34,183 nucleotides of DNA from Actinomycetota bacterium (GTDB lineage Bacteria; Actinomycetota; UBA4738; HRBIN12): the NCBI GenBank assembly GCA_021325015.1, contig JAJPHY010000042.1, positions 1 to 34,183 on the forward strand. The letters run 5' to 3'. Position 1 is the stretch's first letter; every line of letters begins with the position of its first letter. This document shows, in pieces, positions 3,051-33,536 of this stretch. Under the pieces are notes generated by a model. It ran no database searches. It was not told where the DNA came from and worked only from the letters and a program-made list of their open reading frames with translations. A program made the translations under genes and the position numbers.

Positions 3051-4016
3051 TCACGACCCCCGCCGGCCGATCTGCTCCGCCCGCGCCACCACGTTCTCCG
3101 CCATGCGGATCGACGCGGCGTCGATCAGGCGGCCGTCGAGCGCGACGGCGCCGCGTCCCTCGGCCGCCGCCTCGCGCATGGCCTCGATGATGCGTCGGGC
3201 GCGCTCGACCTCGGCCTCGGTCGGCGTGAAGACCTCGTTCAGCGGCTCGATCTGCGAGGGGTGGATCGCCCACTTCCCCTCGCAGCCCAGGGCCGCCGCG
3301 CGCCGGGCCGACGCGAGGAGCCCCTCGCGGTCGCCGAGGTCGGCGTACGGTCCGTCGATCGCCCGGAGGCCGAACGCGCGGGCGGCGGCCACCATTCGCG
3401 ACAGCGCGTAGTGCCACTGGTCGCCCCAGTGCCGTTCGCGCTCGCCCGCGTCGTTCGGGTCGGTCAGCACGGCGTAGTCGGGGTTCGGCCCGCCGATGCT
3501 GGTCGTGCGCGCCCGGACCGAGGCCGCGTAGTCGCCGGGCCCGAAGACGAGCGCCTCGAGCCGGTCCGGGCTCGCCTGGGCGATCTCCTCCACGTTCACG
3601 ATCCCGAGGGCGGTCTCGATCAGGACGTGGAGGTTGACCGGGCGGCGCCCGTGGGCGCGCTCGACCTGGCCGCAGAGCGTGGCCACGAACTCCACGTCGC
3701 TGGCGCGACCGACCTTCGGGACGAGGATCGAGTCGACGATGTCGCCGGCGCGCTCGATGACCTCGACGACGTCCCGGTAGCACCACTCGGTGTCGAGCCC
3801 GTTGATCCGCACCGCTACCGAGCACCGGGACCAGTCCAGCCGCCGCAGCGCCTCGATCGCCTGCTCCCGGGCTCGATCCTTGTCGTCGGGCGCCACCGCG
3901 TCCTCGAGGTCGAGGAACACCACGTCGGCGCCGAGTCCCGGAGCCTTCTCCATCGCGCGGAGGTTGGTGGCCGGGACGGCGAGCTCCGTGCGGTGCAGTC
4001 GGTCTCGAACGGCCAT
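3051..4016 (-). CDS. HpcH/HpaI aldolase family CoA-ester lyase, malyl-CoA lyase-like
   Basis: TIM-barrel lyase of the CitE/Mcl family, 321 aa, expected to cleave or form L-malyl-CoA or beta-methylmalyl-CoA (acetyl-CoA or propionyl-CoA plus glyoxylate). Visible family blocks are FLDLEDAVAPDDKDRAR (residues 34-50), VRINGLDTEWCYRDV, the acidic metal-site block HVLIETALGIVNVEEI, LVFGPGDYAAS, and near the end AIDGPYADLGDREG and GKWAIHPSQI. The last two are typical of Mcl rather than citrate lyase beta subunit. No citrate lyase partner genes or glyoxylate-cycle genes are nearby; downstream is the polyamine importer. The ATG at 4016 lacks a clear ribosome site. Exact substrate is uncertain. Confidence 0.82.
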   Translation of the reverse strand: MAVRDRLHRTELAVPATNLRAMEKAPGLGADVVFLDLEDAVAPDDKDRAREQAIEALRRLDWSRCSVAVRINGLDTEWCYRDVVEVIERAGDIVDSILVPKVGRASDVEFVATLCGQVERAHGRRPVNLHVLIETALGIVNVEEIAQASPDRLEALVFGPGDYAASVRARTTSIGGPNPDYAVLTDPNDAGERERHWGDQWHYALSRMVAAARAFGLRAIDGPYADLGDREGLLASARRAAALGCEGKWAIHPSQIEPLNEVFTPTEAEVERARRIIEAMREAAAEGRGAVALDGRLIDAASIRMAENVVARAEQIGRRGS

Positions 4017-4041
4017 CGCGGTCGGCCGCGATCCCGCCGCT

Positions 4042-4554
4042 TCAGTCCTCGGCGATCCGGACGCGTTCGAGGACCACGTCGCCGGCCGGTCGGTCCTGCG
4101 GGTCCGTCGGCACCCGCGAGATCGCCTCGACCACCTCGTAGCCCGACGTGACCTCGCCGAAGATCGTGTGCTTCCCGGTGAGCCAGGGCGTCGGCGCCAC
4201 CGTGACGAAGAACTGCGAGCCGTTGGTGTTCGGCCCGCCGTTCGCCATCGCGAGGAGACCGGGGCGGTCGAACGCGGGGCCGTCCGGCGGGCACTCGTCC
4301 TCGAACCGGTAGCCGGGGCCGCCGGTCCCGGTTCCCGTGGGGTCGCCGCCCTGGATCATGAACCGCTCGATCACGCGGTGAAAGACCGTCCCGTCGTACA
4401 GCGGTTCCCGGCGGGCACGACCGTCGCGCGGGTCGGTCCACTCGCGCCCCCCGGTCGCGAGGGCGACGAAGTTCTCGACGGTCTTCGGGGCGTGGTCCGG
4501 CATGAGCCGCACCGTGAACGAGCCCATCGAGGTCTGGAACGTCGCCGTGGTCAT
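4042..4554 (-). CDS. Cyclophilin-type peptidyl-prolyl cis-trans isomerase
   Basis: Proline isomerase assisting protein folding, 170 aa, with no signal peptide, so cytoplasmic. The core shows [20 protein letters not shown], then [18 protein letters not shown] and [14 protein letters not shown], which supply the Arg, Phe, Gln, Trp and His expected in a cyclophilin active site. I chose the ATG at 4554: it has a GGAGGTGG ribosome site about 7 nt upstream, and the protein then begins with the usual first strand, whereas the longer open frame upstream is not protein-like. It lies 80 nt after bcp and 25 nt before the lyase, all on the same strand. Confidence 0.93.
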
Positions 4555-5993: not shown

Positions 5994-8036
<2,043 letters not shown>

Positions 8037-27393: not shown

Positions 27394-28091
27394 TGCCCGC
27401 GATCCGGAGCCACTTCCACGAGGAGCTCGACGCCCTGGAGCTCGACATCCTCGCGATGGGCGAGCTCGCCGAGCGGTCGGTCGGCCGGGCCGTCGAGGCC
27501 CTGGCCCGGAACGATCGCGACGAGGTCGAGGCCGTCGTCGCCGGCGACGACGAGATCGACGCCAGGTACCTGTCCGTGGAACAGCGCATCGTCGAGCTGC
27601 TTGCGCTCCAGACGCCGGTCGCGAGCGACCTCCGGCTCATCACGTCGATGCTCCACGTCAACCTGCACCTGGAGCGGATCGGCGACATGGCCGTCAACAT
27701 CGCGAAGACCACCCGCTCGATCCTGGACCTGCCGAGCTCGGGAGCCATCCTCGCGCACATCCAGGAGATGTCGGACGTCGTCCGTCCGATGATCCGAACG
27801 GCCATGGAGGCGTTCCGGACGCGCGACCTCGACCTGTGCCTTCGCCTGCCGGCGATGGATGATCCGGTTGACCGCCTGAACCTCGGCATGTACAAGGAGG
27901 TCGCGGCGCTCGCCGGGGATCCGGATGCGCTCAACTGGGGGCTCAGGATGATCCTGATCGCCCGGCAGCTCGAGCGGGTGGGCGATCACGCGGTCGATAT
28001 CGGCGAGCAGATCGGGTTCCTCCTCACCGGCGAGTTCAGGGAGTTCACGGATGCCTCGCACCCCGTCCACCTCACTCCCGACGCCGGCTGA
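27393..28091 (+). CDS. phoU: Phosphate signalling regulator PhoU
   Basis: A 232-aa all-helical protein that links Pst transport state to PhoR, normally damping the Pho response. Two PhoU repeats are visible: LHLERIGDMAVNIAKTTRS in the first and RQLERVGDHAVDIGEQIGF in the second, carrying the E/RxGDxAxxI metal-binding motif. The start codon overlaps the pstB stop by 1 nt and the end overlaps phoB by 41 nt. Confidence 0.96.
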   Translation: MPAIRSHFHEELDALELDILAMGELAERSVGRAVEALARNDRDEVEAVVAGDDEIDARYLSVEQRIVELLALQTPVASDLRLITSMLHVNLHLERIGDMAVNIAKTTRSILDLPSSGAILAHIQEMSDVVRPMIRTAMEAFRTRDLDLCLRLPAMDDPVDRLNLGMYKEVAALAGDPDALNWGLRMILIARQLERVGDHAVDIGEQIGFLLTGEFREFTDASHPVHLTPDAG

Positions 28092-28779
28092 GACGGCGCG
28101 CATCCTGGTCGTCGAGGACGAGGAGTCGTTGGCGGACACCGTCCGCTACAACCTCGAGCGCGAGGGCTACGCCGTCACCGTCGCCACCGACGGACGCCGG
28201 GCGATCGAGCGCTTCCGGGCAGAGTCGCCCTCGCTGATCATCCTGGACCTGATGCTGCCCGAGATGTCGGGGCTCGACGTGTGCCGGGTGATTCGCGCGG
28301 AGTCGACCGTGCCGATCATCATGGTCACCGCGAAGGACTCGGAGGCGGACAAGGTCGCCGGTCTCGAGCTCGGCGCCGACGACTACGTCACCAAGCCGTT
28401 CTCGGTGCGGGAGCTGATCTCGAGGGTCCGGGCCAACCTGCGCCGGGCCCGGCCGCAGGCGCTCGTGCCCGTTGCGGAGGAGCAGCTCGAGAGCGGTCCC
28501 GTGAGGATGGACGTGACCCGGCACGAGGTGCTCGTGCGCGGGGAGCCCGTCGCCCTTCCCCCGAAGGAGTTCGAGCTGCTCGAGACCTTCCTGCGCCGAC
28601 CGGGACGCCTGCTCACGCGGGACTTCCTGATCGAGGAGGTCTGGGGCCCGGATTACTTCGGCGACACCAAGACCCTCGACGTGCACGTGAAGCGTCTCCG
28701 CCAGAAGATCGAGGTCGACCCGCACCACCCCGAGCACCTGCTCACCGTCCGGGGCCTCGGGTACAAGTTCGTCGCCTGA
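28051..28779 (+). CDS. phoB: PhoB/RegX3-family response regulator
   Basis: OmpR-family transcription regulator, 242 aa. Receiver: acidic patch VEDEE (residues 21-25), phospho-acceptor Asp66 (LIILDLMLP), Thr in MVTAKD and Lys in DDYVTKPFS. C-terminal winged helix: LPPKEFELLETFLRRPGRLL, IEEVWG, TLDVHVKRLRQKIE and VRGLGYKF. The ATG at 28051 has AGGGAG 7 nt upstream and lies inside the phoU end. Partner kinase is almost certainly the divergent phoR, although the two are split by the pst operon. It should bind the Pho-box-like repeats before pstS. Confidence 0.95.
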   Translation: MPRTPSTSLPTPAETARILVVEDEESLADTVRYNLEREGYAVTVATDGRRAIERFRAESPSLIILDLMLPEMSGLDVCRVIRAESTVPIIMVTAKDSEADKVAGLELGADDYVTKPFSVRELISRVRANLRRARPQALVPVAEEQLESGPVRMDVTRHEVLVRGEPVALPPKEFELLETFLRRPGRLLTRDFLIEEVWGPDYFGDTKTLDVHVKRLRQKIEVDPHHPEHLLTVRGLGYKFVA

Positions 28780-28809
28780 GATCGACGGCGCCGTGCCGGT
28801 CGCCTGAAG

Positions 28810-28820
28810 GTTCACCCACG
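28810..28820 (+). promoter_or_regulatory. Pho-box-like unit downstream of phoB
   Basis: GTTCACCCACG, followed by G, differs by one base from the second pstS unit GTTCATCCACG with its following G. A GGTCACC lies exactly 44 nt (four 11-nt steps) further on at 28854-28860; units between them are degenerate. I see no clear -10 box after it. Confidence 0.4.
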
Positions 28821-29354
28821 GACGCCCTCCGCGTTCCCTCGCCGTCGGGTCGCGGTCACCTTGGATCTCTCGGACTCTCCCGACGGGCGGTGCACCGCCG
28901 CCCCCGGGAGAGAGGAGGCTCGGATGGGAAGGTCGCTCTCGCGCTTCCGAACGAGGACCCGATCTCCGATCTCAGCCGCTTGTCGCGGGATCGGTCTTCG
29001 GTCTGAGGCTGGGCAAGAACGGGAGCGCTCCCGGAGCCGACTGCCGTCAGGGGACCAACACCGGGCCTGGGACGTGGGTCGCCATTCGCAGCTCGCCCGA
29101 CCCCGACTCGCGAGCCGCCGCCGCCTCGCTCGGCCTGACGGAGGACTACCGCCCCGAGGACATCGAGGTCGGCCGCCCCCCGCTCTCGGCCGGCAAGGCA
29201 ACGGAGGCTCCGGGATGACCCGGGGCCTTTGTTGCGTGTGCGTTCCCCCGCGAGTGGACAAACGGCCGCGGCCGCCGATAGGTTGCGTCCGGCCGCCGAG
29301 CTGCTTCGGTCGAGGGACCGGGGCCGCCTCGAACGACAGAGGGGGAGCAGCGGA
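28821..29354 (+). other. Region of about 575 nt without an intact gene between phoB and DUF47; candidate small transcription unit
   Basis: From 28780 to 29354 no recognisable gene is intact. The region has a nested hairpin: CTCTCCCG/CGGGAGAG arms at 28875-28882 and 28905-28912, enclosing the palindrome GGCGGTGCACCGCC. Next come a strong ribosome site AGGAGG (28913-28918) and an ATG (28924), then coding-like stretches in two other frames: protein-like VALALPNEDPISDLSRL near 28930-29003, and SSPDPDSRAAAASLGLTEDY to a TGA at 29216. A terminator follows. It may be a broken small gene with two frameshifts or a structured RNA. Confidence 0.4.
29206..29233 (+). terminator. Intrinsic terminator
   Basis: GGCTCCGGG (29206-29214) pairs with CCCGGGGCC (29219-29227) over 9 bp, one a T-G pair, with loop ATGA, then TTTGTT. 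It ends a plus-strand transcript before the DUF47 gene, although no intact gene is recognised just upstream. Confidence 0.65.
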
Positions 29355-29972
29355 TTGCCGTTCCGGGTCATCCCGCGCGAGCAGGCCTTCTACGACCTGT
29401 TGGAGCAGGCCGCCGACGGTGTCGCGGCCGGGGCCGAAGAGCTTCTGGCGCTGGTGGACGACTTCGACCATGCGGAGGCGCACGGCCGGCGAATCCTGGA
29501 GCTCGAGCGCGATGGCGACGAGCTGACGCACCGCATCATGGGCCTGCTGAACACCACGTTCGTCACGCCCATGGACCGGCACGACGTCCACCACCTCGCG
29601 TCGTCGCTCGACGACGTGCTCGACGGCCAGGAAGCCGTCTCGGACCTCCTGATCCTCCACCACGTGCGGGAGCCGATCCCGCAGCTCCGGCAGCAGGCCG
29701 AGATCCTCCTCGGTGCCACCAGGGCGGCAGCTCGCGCGGTGCGCGAGCTGCGGTCGCCGCACGCGACCGGGCGCCCGTGGGTCGAGATCCTGCGGTACGA
29801 GCGAGACGGCGACCACGTCTTCCGGCGCGCCGTCGCCGCCCTGTACTCGGGCGACTACAAGGCGATGGACGTCCTCAAGTGGAAGGACATCCTCGAGGAG
29901 ATGGAGTCGGCGATCGATCGATGCGAGGACATCGCCAACACCGTGGAGTCCATCGTTGTCAAGCTCGCGTGA
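29355..29972 (+). CDS. DUF47 (PhoU-like) protein, partner of Pit
   Basis: A 205-aa helical protein of the PhoU-like DUF47/TIGR00153 group, thought to regulate Pit-type phosphate transporters. It reads VIPREQAFYDLLEQAADGVA, then ERDGDELTHRIMGLLNTTFV, TPMDRHDVHHLASSLDDVLD and near the end MDVLKWKDILEEMESAIDRC. I chose TTG at 29355: GGGGGAG lies 7-8 nt before it, and the length then matches the paralog at 31205-31828 (207 aa). A longer frame from 29229 is Arg-rich and not homologous. It is 6 nt before pit. Confidence 0.9.
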   Translation: MPFRVIPREQAFYDLLEQAADGVAAGAEELLALVDDFDHAEAHGRRILELERDGDELTHRIMGLLNTTFVTPMDRHDVHHLASSLDDVLDGQEAVSDLLILHHVREPIPQLRQQAEILLGATRAAARAVRELRSPHATGRPWVEILRYERDGDHVFRRAVAALYSGDYKAMDVLKWKDILEEMESAIDRCEDIANTVESIVVKLA

Positions 29973-29978
29973 GCCCGC

Positions 29979-30971
29979 ATGAGCGCCGCCGTCGTCCTCA
30001 TCATCGCGGTGGCGCTCGCCTTCGACTTCTTCAACGGGTTCCACGACGCGGCCAATTCGATCGCGACCGTGGTCTCGACGCGGGTGCTGACGCCTCGGCT
30101 GGCGGTCGCCTGGGCCGCGTTATTCAACTTCGCCGCGTTCGTGATCTTCGGCACCGCGGTCGCGAGCACCATCGCCAAGGACGTGGTGCTCCAGAGCGTG
30201 CTGTCGAACGGCGTGATCTTCGCCGGGCTCGTGGGCGCGATCGCCTGGGACATCATCACGTGGTGGCTTGGCCTGCCCACCAGCTCGTCGCACGCGCTCG
30301 TCGGGGGGATCGCCGGCGCGGCCGTCGCGCGGGCGGGGTGGAAGGCACTGATCGGCGTCGGGCTGCAGAAGATCGCGGTGTTCATCGTGCTCTCGCCGAT
30401 CGTCGGCTTGCTGCTCGGCTTCACAATCATGGTGATCGTGTTCTGGCTGTTCCACCGGTACCGGAAGGTGGACCGGCTGAACCGAGCGTTCCGGCGCACG
30501 CAACTTTTGTCCGCGGCCGCGTTCAGCCTCGGGCACGGCGCCAACGACGCCCAGAAGACGATGGGCGTGATCCTCGCCCTCCTGATCGCGAACCACGTCG
30601 TCCCGGCCACGTCCAGCGTGCCGCTGTGGGTGGTGCTCTCCGCCCACACCGCGATCGGGCTCGGCACGCTGTTCGGAGGCTGGCGCATCGTCCACACGAT
30701 GGGCTCGCGGATCACCAAGCTGAACCCCGTCGGAGGGATGAGCGCCGAGCTGGCGGCCGCCTCGACCCTGTTCTTCACCGCCCACGCGGGGATCCCGGTT
30801 TCGACCACCCACACGATCACGGGGGCGATCGTCGGCGTGGGGACGACCCAACGGCTGGCCGCCGTCCGGTGGGGGATCGCCGGGCGCGTGGTCTGGGCCT
30901 GGATCCTCACGATCCCAGGAGCCTTCGTGGTGGCGTGGCTCACGTACCTGCCGGTGAGGGCGCTCGCGTGA
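29979..30971 (+). CDS. pit: Low-affinity inorganic phosphate transporter Pit
   Basis: Membrane transporter of the PHO4/PiT family, 330 aa, moving metal-phosphate with protons (or sodium). Both inverted PiT signatures are present: FNGFHDAANSIATVVSTRVL near residue 14 and SLGHGANDAQKTMGVILALL near residue 185. Other blocks are GLPTSSSHALVGGIAGAAVA and HAGIPVSTTHTITGAIVGVG. About ten membrane helices. It follows DUF47 by 6 nt, and its stop overlaps the next small gene in a GTGA, so three genes are co-translated. Confidence 0.95.
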   Translation: MSAAVVLIIAVALAFDFFNGFHDAANSIATVVSTRVLTPRLAVAWAALFNFAAFVIFGTAVASTIAKDVVLQSVLSNGVIFAGLVGAIAWDIITWWLGLPTSSSHALVGGIAGAAVARAGWKALIGVGLQKIAVFIVLSPIVGLLLGFTIMVIVFWLFHRYRKVDRLNRAFRRTQLLSAAAFSLGHGANDAQKTMGVILALLIANHVVPATSSVPLWVVLSAHTAIGLGTLFGGWRIVHTMGSRITKLNPVGGMSAELAAASTLFFTAHAGIPVSTTHTITGAIVGVGTTQRLAAVRWGIAGRVVWAWILTIPGAFVVAWLTYLPVRALA

Positions 30972-31204: not shown

Positions 31205-31828
31205 CTACGCGTGCTTGAGCACGATCGACTCGATCACGTTCGCGACGTTCTCCAGCCCGTCGAGCGCGTCCTCAAGGTTCTCGATGACCTCCTTCCAGCG
31301 GAGGACGTCCATCGCCCGGTACTCGCCGGAGAACAGGTCCGCCACCGCGTGGCGGTAGAGCTGGTCGCCCTCGTTCTCGAGCGTGTTGATCTCGATCCAG
31401 TAGGGCTCGAGGTGGTCGCGGTTCATCTTCGGCAGGAGCTTGAGCGCCTCCTCGGTCTGCTGCGCGGCGCGCAGGAGCACGTCGATCTGCTGCTTCATCT
31501 GGGGGAGCGGTTGCTCGATCTGGTGGAGCAGGAACAGGTCGGACACGGCCTCGATGGAGTCGAGCACGTCGTCCAGGGCGGTCGCGAGCTGGTAGATGTC
31601 CTCGCGGTCCATCGGCGTGATGAACGAGGTGTTCAGGCGCCGGATGATGGAGTGAGTGACCTGGTCGCCCTCGTGCTCGCGATCGGAGATCCGTTTGGCC
31701 TTCAGGTCAACGTCGCGATAGTCCTCGACGAGGTCCTTCAGCAGTTCGGTCGTCTCGCGCAGGTTGCGGGCCGACTCGACGAACAGGTCGAAGAACTCCT
31801 CCGCCCGCTGCGAGATCTTGAGCTTCAC
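31205..31828 (-). CDS. Second DUF47 (PhoU-like) protein
   Basis: A 207-aa PhoU-like protein facing the pit operon. It reads ISQRAEEFFDLFVESARNLR, ISDREHEGDQVTHSIIRRLN, FITPMDREDIYQLATALDDV and MDVLRWKEVIENLEDALDGL, parallel to the paralog at 29355. The start is GTG at 31828 with GGAGGAGG just before it. Two DUF47 copies around one pit gene suggest either that each answers a different transporter or that they form a heteromer; both are inference. The 40 nt to the convergent gene hold only a weak GCCCGG/CCGGGC stem. Confidence 0.92.
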   Translation of the reverse strand: MKLKISQRAEEFFDLFVESARNLRETTELLKDLVEDYRDVDLKAKRISDREHEGDQVTHSIIRRLNTSFITPMDREDIYQLATALDDVLDSIEAVSDLFLLHQIEQPLPQMKQQIDVLLRAAQQTEEALKLLPKMNRDHLEPYWIEINTLENEGDQLYRHAVADLFSGEYRAMDVLRWKEVIENLEDALDGLENVANVIESIVLKHA

Positions 31829-33275: not shown

Positions 33276-33536
33276 TGGTGGTCTTCACCCCCGCGGCGGA
33301 CCGTGACTGGCGGCCAGGTCCCGTCGGCCGGAGCGGGCGCGCCCGGCCGACCCGCGGCAGGTCGCGGGTGCTCCATCACCTCCTTGGGCTCGTGTGTCCT
33401 CGACCCGTGACCGCTCGGGCGCTCGGTCCCGGCGCCCGCCGCCGGGCGTGCGCCATCCGCTCCTGGGCTTGGAGGGAGGTCGCACCGGGACGGCGGGAGG
33501 ATCGGATCGAGCGTCCGATCGGTCGGGGCGAACCTA
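33276..33536 (-). promoter_or_regulatory. Long structured leader of the lysozyme-like gene
   Basis: TAGGTT on the minus strand (33531-33536) is a likely -10 box, giving a leader of about 250 nt. At its 5' end GATCGGA/TCCGATC (33500-33506, 33514-33520) forms a hairpin. GGTGC and ACCTCC (33486-33475) can pair over a distance with GGAGGT and GCACC (33383-33378 and 33371-33367); that GGAGGT is part of AAGGAGGTGAT, a perfect anti-16S match (33385-33375). Nearer the gene, GTCGGCCGG/CCGGCCGAC (33323-33331, 33343-33351) forms a 9-bp stem. Shape and target class suggest a riboswitch, but I could not match the c-di-AMP (ydaO) consensus. Confidence 0.5.

Follow-up and report, generated by a model that had tools for sequence, protein, structure and literature searches.

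The phoB-DUF47 gap of the Pho cluster

The phosphate genes of the window (the whole 34,183-nt stretch of DNA that was analyzed) include a phoB-type response regulator gene (28051-28779, forward strand; Pfam Response_reg and Trans_reg_C), a DUF47/PhoU_div gene (29355-29972, forward strand; Pfam PF01865, E 2.6e-23) and, after the DUF47 gene, pit, which encodes a PHO4-type phosphate transporter (29979-30971; Pfam PF01384, E 2.1e-92). The phoB stop (28779) and the DUF47-pit start (29355) are separated by a gap of 575 nt. A second DUF47 gene (31208-31828, reverse strand) is convergent to pit and gives the cluster two DUF47 genes; several relatives keep both, and there the second sometimes points the same way as pit.

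The phoB-DUF47 gap of most relatives is 44-153 nt. The gaps of G011 and G060 are about 600 and 740 nt, respectively, with extra bases (G011:C41, about 6436-7036; G060:C8, about 3568-4310) that are unrelated in sequence to those of the window. PhoX remnants, of the type described below, are absent from these two long gaps, both of which were checked. Since the G011 and G060 gaps are long and of unrelated sequence, the phoB-DUF47 gap seems to be a place where extra DNA is repeatedly gained and lost. An earlier note proposed an orphan transcription unit for the gap; apart from the coding part, the relatives do not share this interval, their gaps being either short or, in G011 and G060, unrelated.

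A PhoX-like remnant within the gap

Positions 28947-29197 are, with high probability and as judged by sequence comparison, what remains on the forward strand of a gene of the PhoX/DUF839 family (PF05787); this remnant is collinear with the family and shifted in frame. The main piece (28964-29197, frame 2), recovered by homology search and by profile, is equivalent to residues 262-339 of a 489-residue protein of the relative G009, which it matches at E 2.3e-16 and with 51% identity over 76 aligned codons. The first piece (28947-28976, frame 0) encodes PNEDPISDLS, aligned to PGADPITSLS of the same intact relative, and is collinear with the main piece; the match behind this 30-nt upstream piece is short (p 0.004), with 0.4% of shuffles scoring as well.

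A profile of six intact relatives (G009 plus five others) detects 28964-29197 at E 2.2e-18 as the sole match among 570 six-frame pieces of the window. When applied to the whole genome (a draft of 169 contigs, 96.5% complete), the same profile has the remnant as its sole match (E 8.4e-16), and neither a second PhoX copy nor other pieces of the gene occur elsewhere in the assembly. Pfam's own PF05787 model has no match anywhere in the genome, the remnant fragment alone falling short of it. Assignment to PF05787 is instead by significant, collinear homology to members of the family.

Intact relatives of the remnant

When 60 related genomes are searched at the DNA level, one match worth following appears, in G009, which belongs to another genus of the same family. 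The match falls within a 489-aa ORF, the product of which is a PF05787 protein (E 1.4e-12), on a contig (VAYX01000023.1) that also carries a pst-phoU-phoB-DUF47-pit cluster. The intact gene is located in this same Pho cluster, about 1.2 kb beyond pit and beyond the second DUF47 gene, whereas the window remnant lies between phoB and DUF47. In G009, a GNAT-like acetyltransferase gene sits on one side of the PhoX-like gene, and a partial copy of the 3' end of this acetyltransferase gene sits on the other (L029 2056-2886 and 4704-4955); the position of this partial copy suggests that the DNA around the PhoX gene was duplicated locally.

Five further intact relatives, all from other phyla, come from a scan of about 85,000 species genomes, and all six intact relatives match PF05787. 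The closest intact relatives (L068-L072) are from genomes labelled Chloroflexi, Thiobacillus, Gammaproteobacteria and Sulfopaludibacter and have 39-63% identity, while few actinobacterial relatives carry the subfamily. Because of this rarity and the distant taxa in which the intact relatives reside, the sequences hint at horizontal transfer of the PhoX subfamily.

The six-relative profile matches the solved PhoX of Pseudomonas fluorescens in the PDB (3zwu/4amf, E 1.5e-5); used alone as a PDB query, the G009 protein returns no match, and the six-member profile is needed. By profile, the P. fluorescens enzyme (3zwu, 4amf) is thus a distant homologue of the intact relatives, which are about 490 residues long and divergent from it, and the phosphatase activity of the subfamily is putative. 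Arg385 of the RPE motif is named as an active-site residue of PhoX (PMC11098088). The window piece spans the stretch with this motif, but nearly all of the fold is missing.

Decay of the gene

About 90 of the about 490 codons of the gene remain (about one sixth), equivalent to residues about 253-339 of 489, and about 250 and 150 codons are missing from the two ends. One clear frame change is found inside the homologous part, near 28976 (frame 0 to frame 2), as the ten residues before the main piece continue the homology in frame 0. Over the main piece, 22 of the 32 invariant columns are kept in the window and 10 are changed; each intact relative, when left out in turn, keeps 32 of the 32-35 columns that are invariant in the other five. 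The remnant and G009 differ at 30/20/40 of codon positions 1/2/3 over 76 codons. Among the intact proteins, the three nearest pairs show 22-25/16-20/47-51 over 86-90 codons, and the third-position bias of the remnant is weaker than in these pairs. The piece is therefore a disabled gene in being truncated, out of frame and depleted of invariant residues; the full-length beta-propeller, metal ligands and export signal of a functional PhoX phosphatase are not what it presents. The earlier suggestion of a small gene broken by two frameshifts holds as to a broken gene and fails as to scale, the sequence being an internal piece of a large PhoX-type gene that lost both ends and has one clear frame change.

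Coding-like segments in two different frames, as first described from the letters alone, are also seen by codon usage. The main frame (frame 2) is open for 136 codons, a length common at this G+C content, and is without ATG, GTG or TTG; CTG at 29003, or some other codon, could conceivably start a short product. A caveat to decay is the third-codon-position GC of the remnant, which is still 88%; thus, the loss may be recent, or the decay may be hidden by base composition.

Signals around the remnant

A Pho-box-like half-site, GTTCACCCACGG, occurs 31 nt past the phoB stop (28810-28821, forward strand). It differs by one base from GTTCATCCACGG of the Pho box upstream of pstS, and the 12-mer claimed to be common to the two sites is real. 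The Pho box of Streptomyces coelicolor is composed of two direct repeats, each of 11 nt and with GTTCACC as its core (PMC4415409). With this actinobacterial box the window shares one perfect 7-nt unit at 28810 (7/7 to GTTCACC), but the second unit at 11-nt spacing is lacking, the partner matching at 3/7. Two 7-nt units at this spacing are hence not found at 28810, and the combination (7/7 + 3/7) is equalled by 28% of shuffles, which is not above chance. The box upstream of pstS scores 7/7 + 7/7 and is equalled by 0/300 shuffles.

The DUF47-pit promoter (29255-29284, forward strand) consists of TGGACA, 18 nt and TAGGTT and is conserved at the equivalent place in relatives. In eight relatives of the same family (G001, G003, G004, G005, G009, G011, G013 and G016), the sequence before DUF47-pit has TGGACA followed, after about 17-18 nt, by a TANNNT-like element. 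Upstream of the promoter, four of these (G001, G003, G013 and G016) carry a Pho-box-like repeat that is stronger than the window half-site and near the equivalent place; in G016, the second unit of the repeat is 32 nt past the phoB stop. The window half-site is about 440 nt from the DUF47-pit promoter. Because the repeats of the relatives lie upstream of the promoter and the G016 spacing is close to that of the window, the remnant and hairpins possibly separate a former Pho box from the DUF47-pit promoter.

Two hairpins, both ranking in the top ten of the window by stability, bracket the remnant. The upstream hairpin (28875-28912, forward strand) is nested, encloses the 14-nt palindrome GGCGGTGCACCGCC and is without a U-tract; its predicted fold (-31 kcal/mol, z -4.3 versus shuffled sequence) bears out its original description. 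The downstream hairpin (29198-29235, forward strand) starts where the phoX homology ends (29197) and has 17 bp, a 4-nt loop (ATGA) and a predicted fold of -34 kcal/mol (z -7.2), which ranks it about second in stability among the 8,535 46-nt stretches sampled from the window. Other 46-nt stretches of about this stability are 33325-33370 (the most stable sampled in the window) and 29725-29770. As a repeat family, the 17-bp hairpin shows no surplus over a control pattern. The hairpin shares a long G+C-rich stem, a short loop and a T-rich 3' side with intrinsic terminators but differs in its short, interrupted U-tract (TTTGTTG), which is weak and mostly inside the stem, and it is missed by a terminator consensus scan. 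Its earlier designation as an intrinsic terminator thus agrees with the very stable fold and not with the U-tract or the scan. The hairpin is a likely terminator that probably ends the pst-phoU-phoB transcript, an assignment kept at this strength because the U-tract is weak. The last coding-like frame stops within its loop (29216-29218), much as had been noticed.

AGGAGG and ATG (AGGAGG-N5-ATG) are present at 28913-28926 (forward strand), and the pattern is commoner in the window than by chance (8 versus 0.9 expected), an excess anticipated because real ribosome sites carry it. The ATG opens frame 1, which is neither coding-like nor the frame of PhoX homology: codon-usage scores are negative throughout, and the ORF from 28924 would reach 29526, inside the DUF47 gene.

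Origin of the gap and alternative explanations

The gap is very likely, for the most part, the middle piece of a dead PhoX-type gene with ordinary regulatory flanks. A PhoX/DUF839-family phosphatase gene would once have been part of this Pho cluster, its intact ancestor presumably encoding a functional phosphatase at this position. The gene would then have lost both ends to large deletions and acquired substitutions and at least one frame change, with about 90 mid-gene codons (28947-29197) left. The 17-bp hairpin directly after the remnant would stop transcripts from pst-phoU-phoB, while the DUF47-pit operon would start at its own conserved promoter (29255-29284). The remnant is probably not translated and would itself yield no product. 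The orphan transcription unit thereby comes apart into a Pho half-site only, an AGGAGG-ATG in the wrong frame, a terminator that is most simply that of pst-phoU-phoB, and a promoter that is that of DUF47-pit.

A phosphate-regulated small RNA, whose transcription would begin at the Pho-like site (28810) and stop at the downstream hairpin (29198-29235), had been offered for the same features, and the half-site, two strong hairpins and terminator-like structure do bracket about 400 nt. However, a sigma-70 scan reveals no promoter-like element in 28700-29500, the Pho box is incomplete and the interval is mostly protein-coding in origin. The phoB-DUF47 intervals of relatives have no similar noncoding sequence, which argues against a conserved small RNA, and Rfam searches of the whole window, plus a loose-threshold search of the region, give nothing near gathering scores and no family. 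A relative is thus found for the protein-coding part only, with neither conserved RNA sequence or structure nor a known RNA family, and a small RNA of this type is very unlikely. Equally slim is the chance that the remnant is reused in a long structured 3' UTR of the pst-phoU-phoB transcript that would release a phosphate-responsive RNA with its end at the same hairpin.

Slightly less probable still is a short functional protein, carved from the old gene and translated from 28924 or a nearby start. The AGGAGG and ATG are well spaced, and the main frame is open to the 29216 stop with third-position G+C still high; however, the 28924 ATG belongs to frame 1 and to neither of the PhoX frames (0 and 2). 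The codon-usage scores of frame 1 are negative throughout, its ORF would extend as far as 29526 within the DUF47 gene, frame 2 is devoid of ATG, GTG and TTG, and roughly one in three invariant residues has been lost. Just as improbable is an assembly artefact that breaks a gene intact in the organism, even though the draft is in 169 contigs and frame changes can be errors of sequencing or assembly: stretches of about 250 and 150 codons are missing, both flanks are a normal Pho cluster in normal order, many invariant residues are changed, and the assembly holds no other piece of the gene.

Implications

With a decayed PhoX-type gene at its center, an odd intergenic stretch is explained without inventing a new RNA. 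An AGGAGG-ATG, hairpins and a Pho half-site around a dead gene can mimic a transcription unit. The region also points to a conserved DUF47-pit promoter, which is accompanied by a Pho box in some relatives, and it adds one case in which a PhoX-type phosphatase gene was very probably lost from the Pho cluster of a little-studied actinobacterial lineage.
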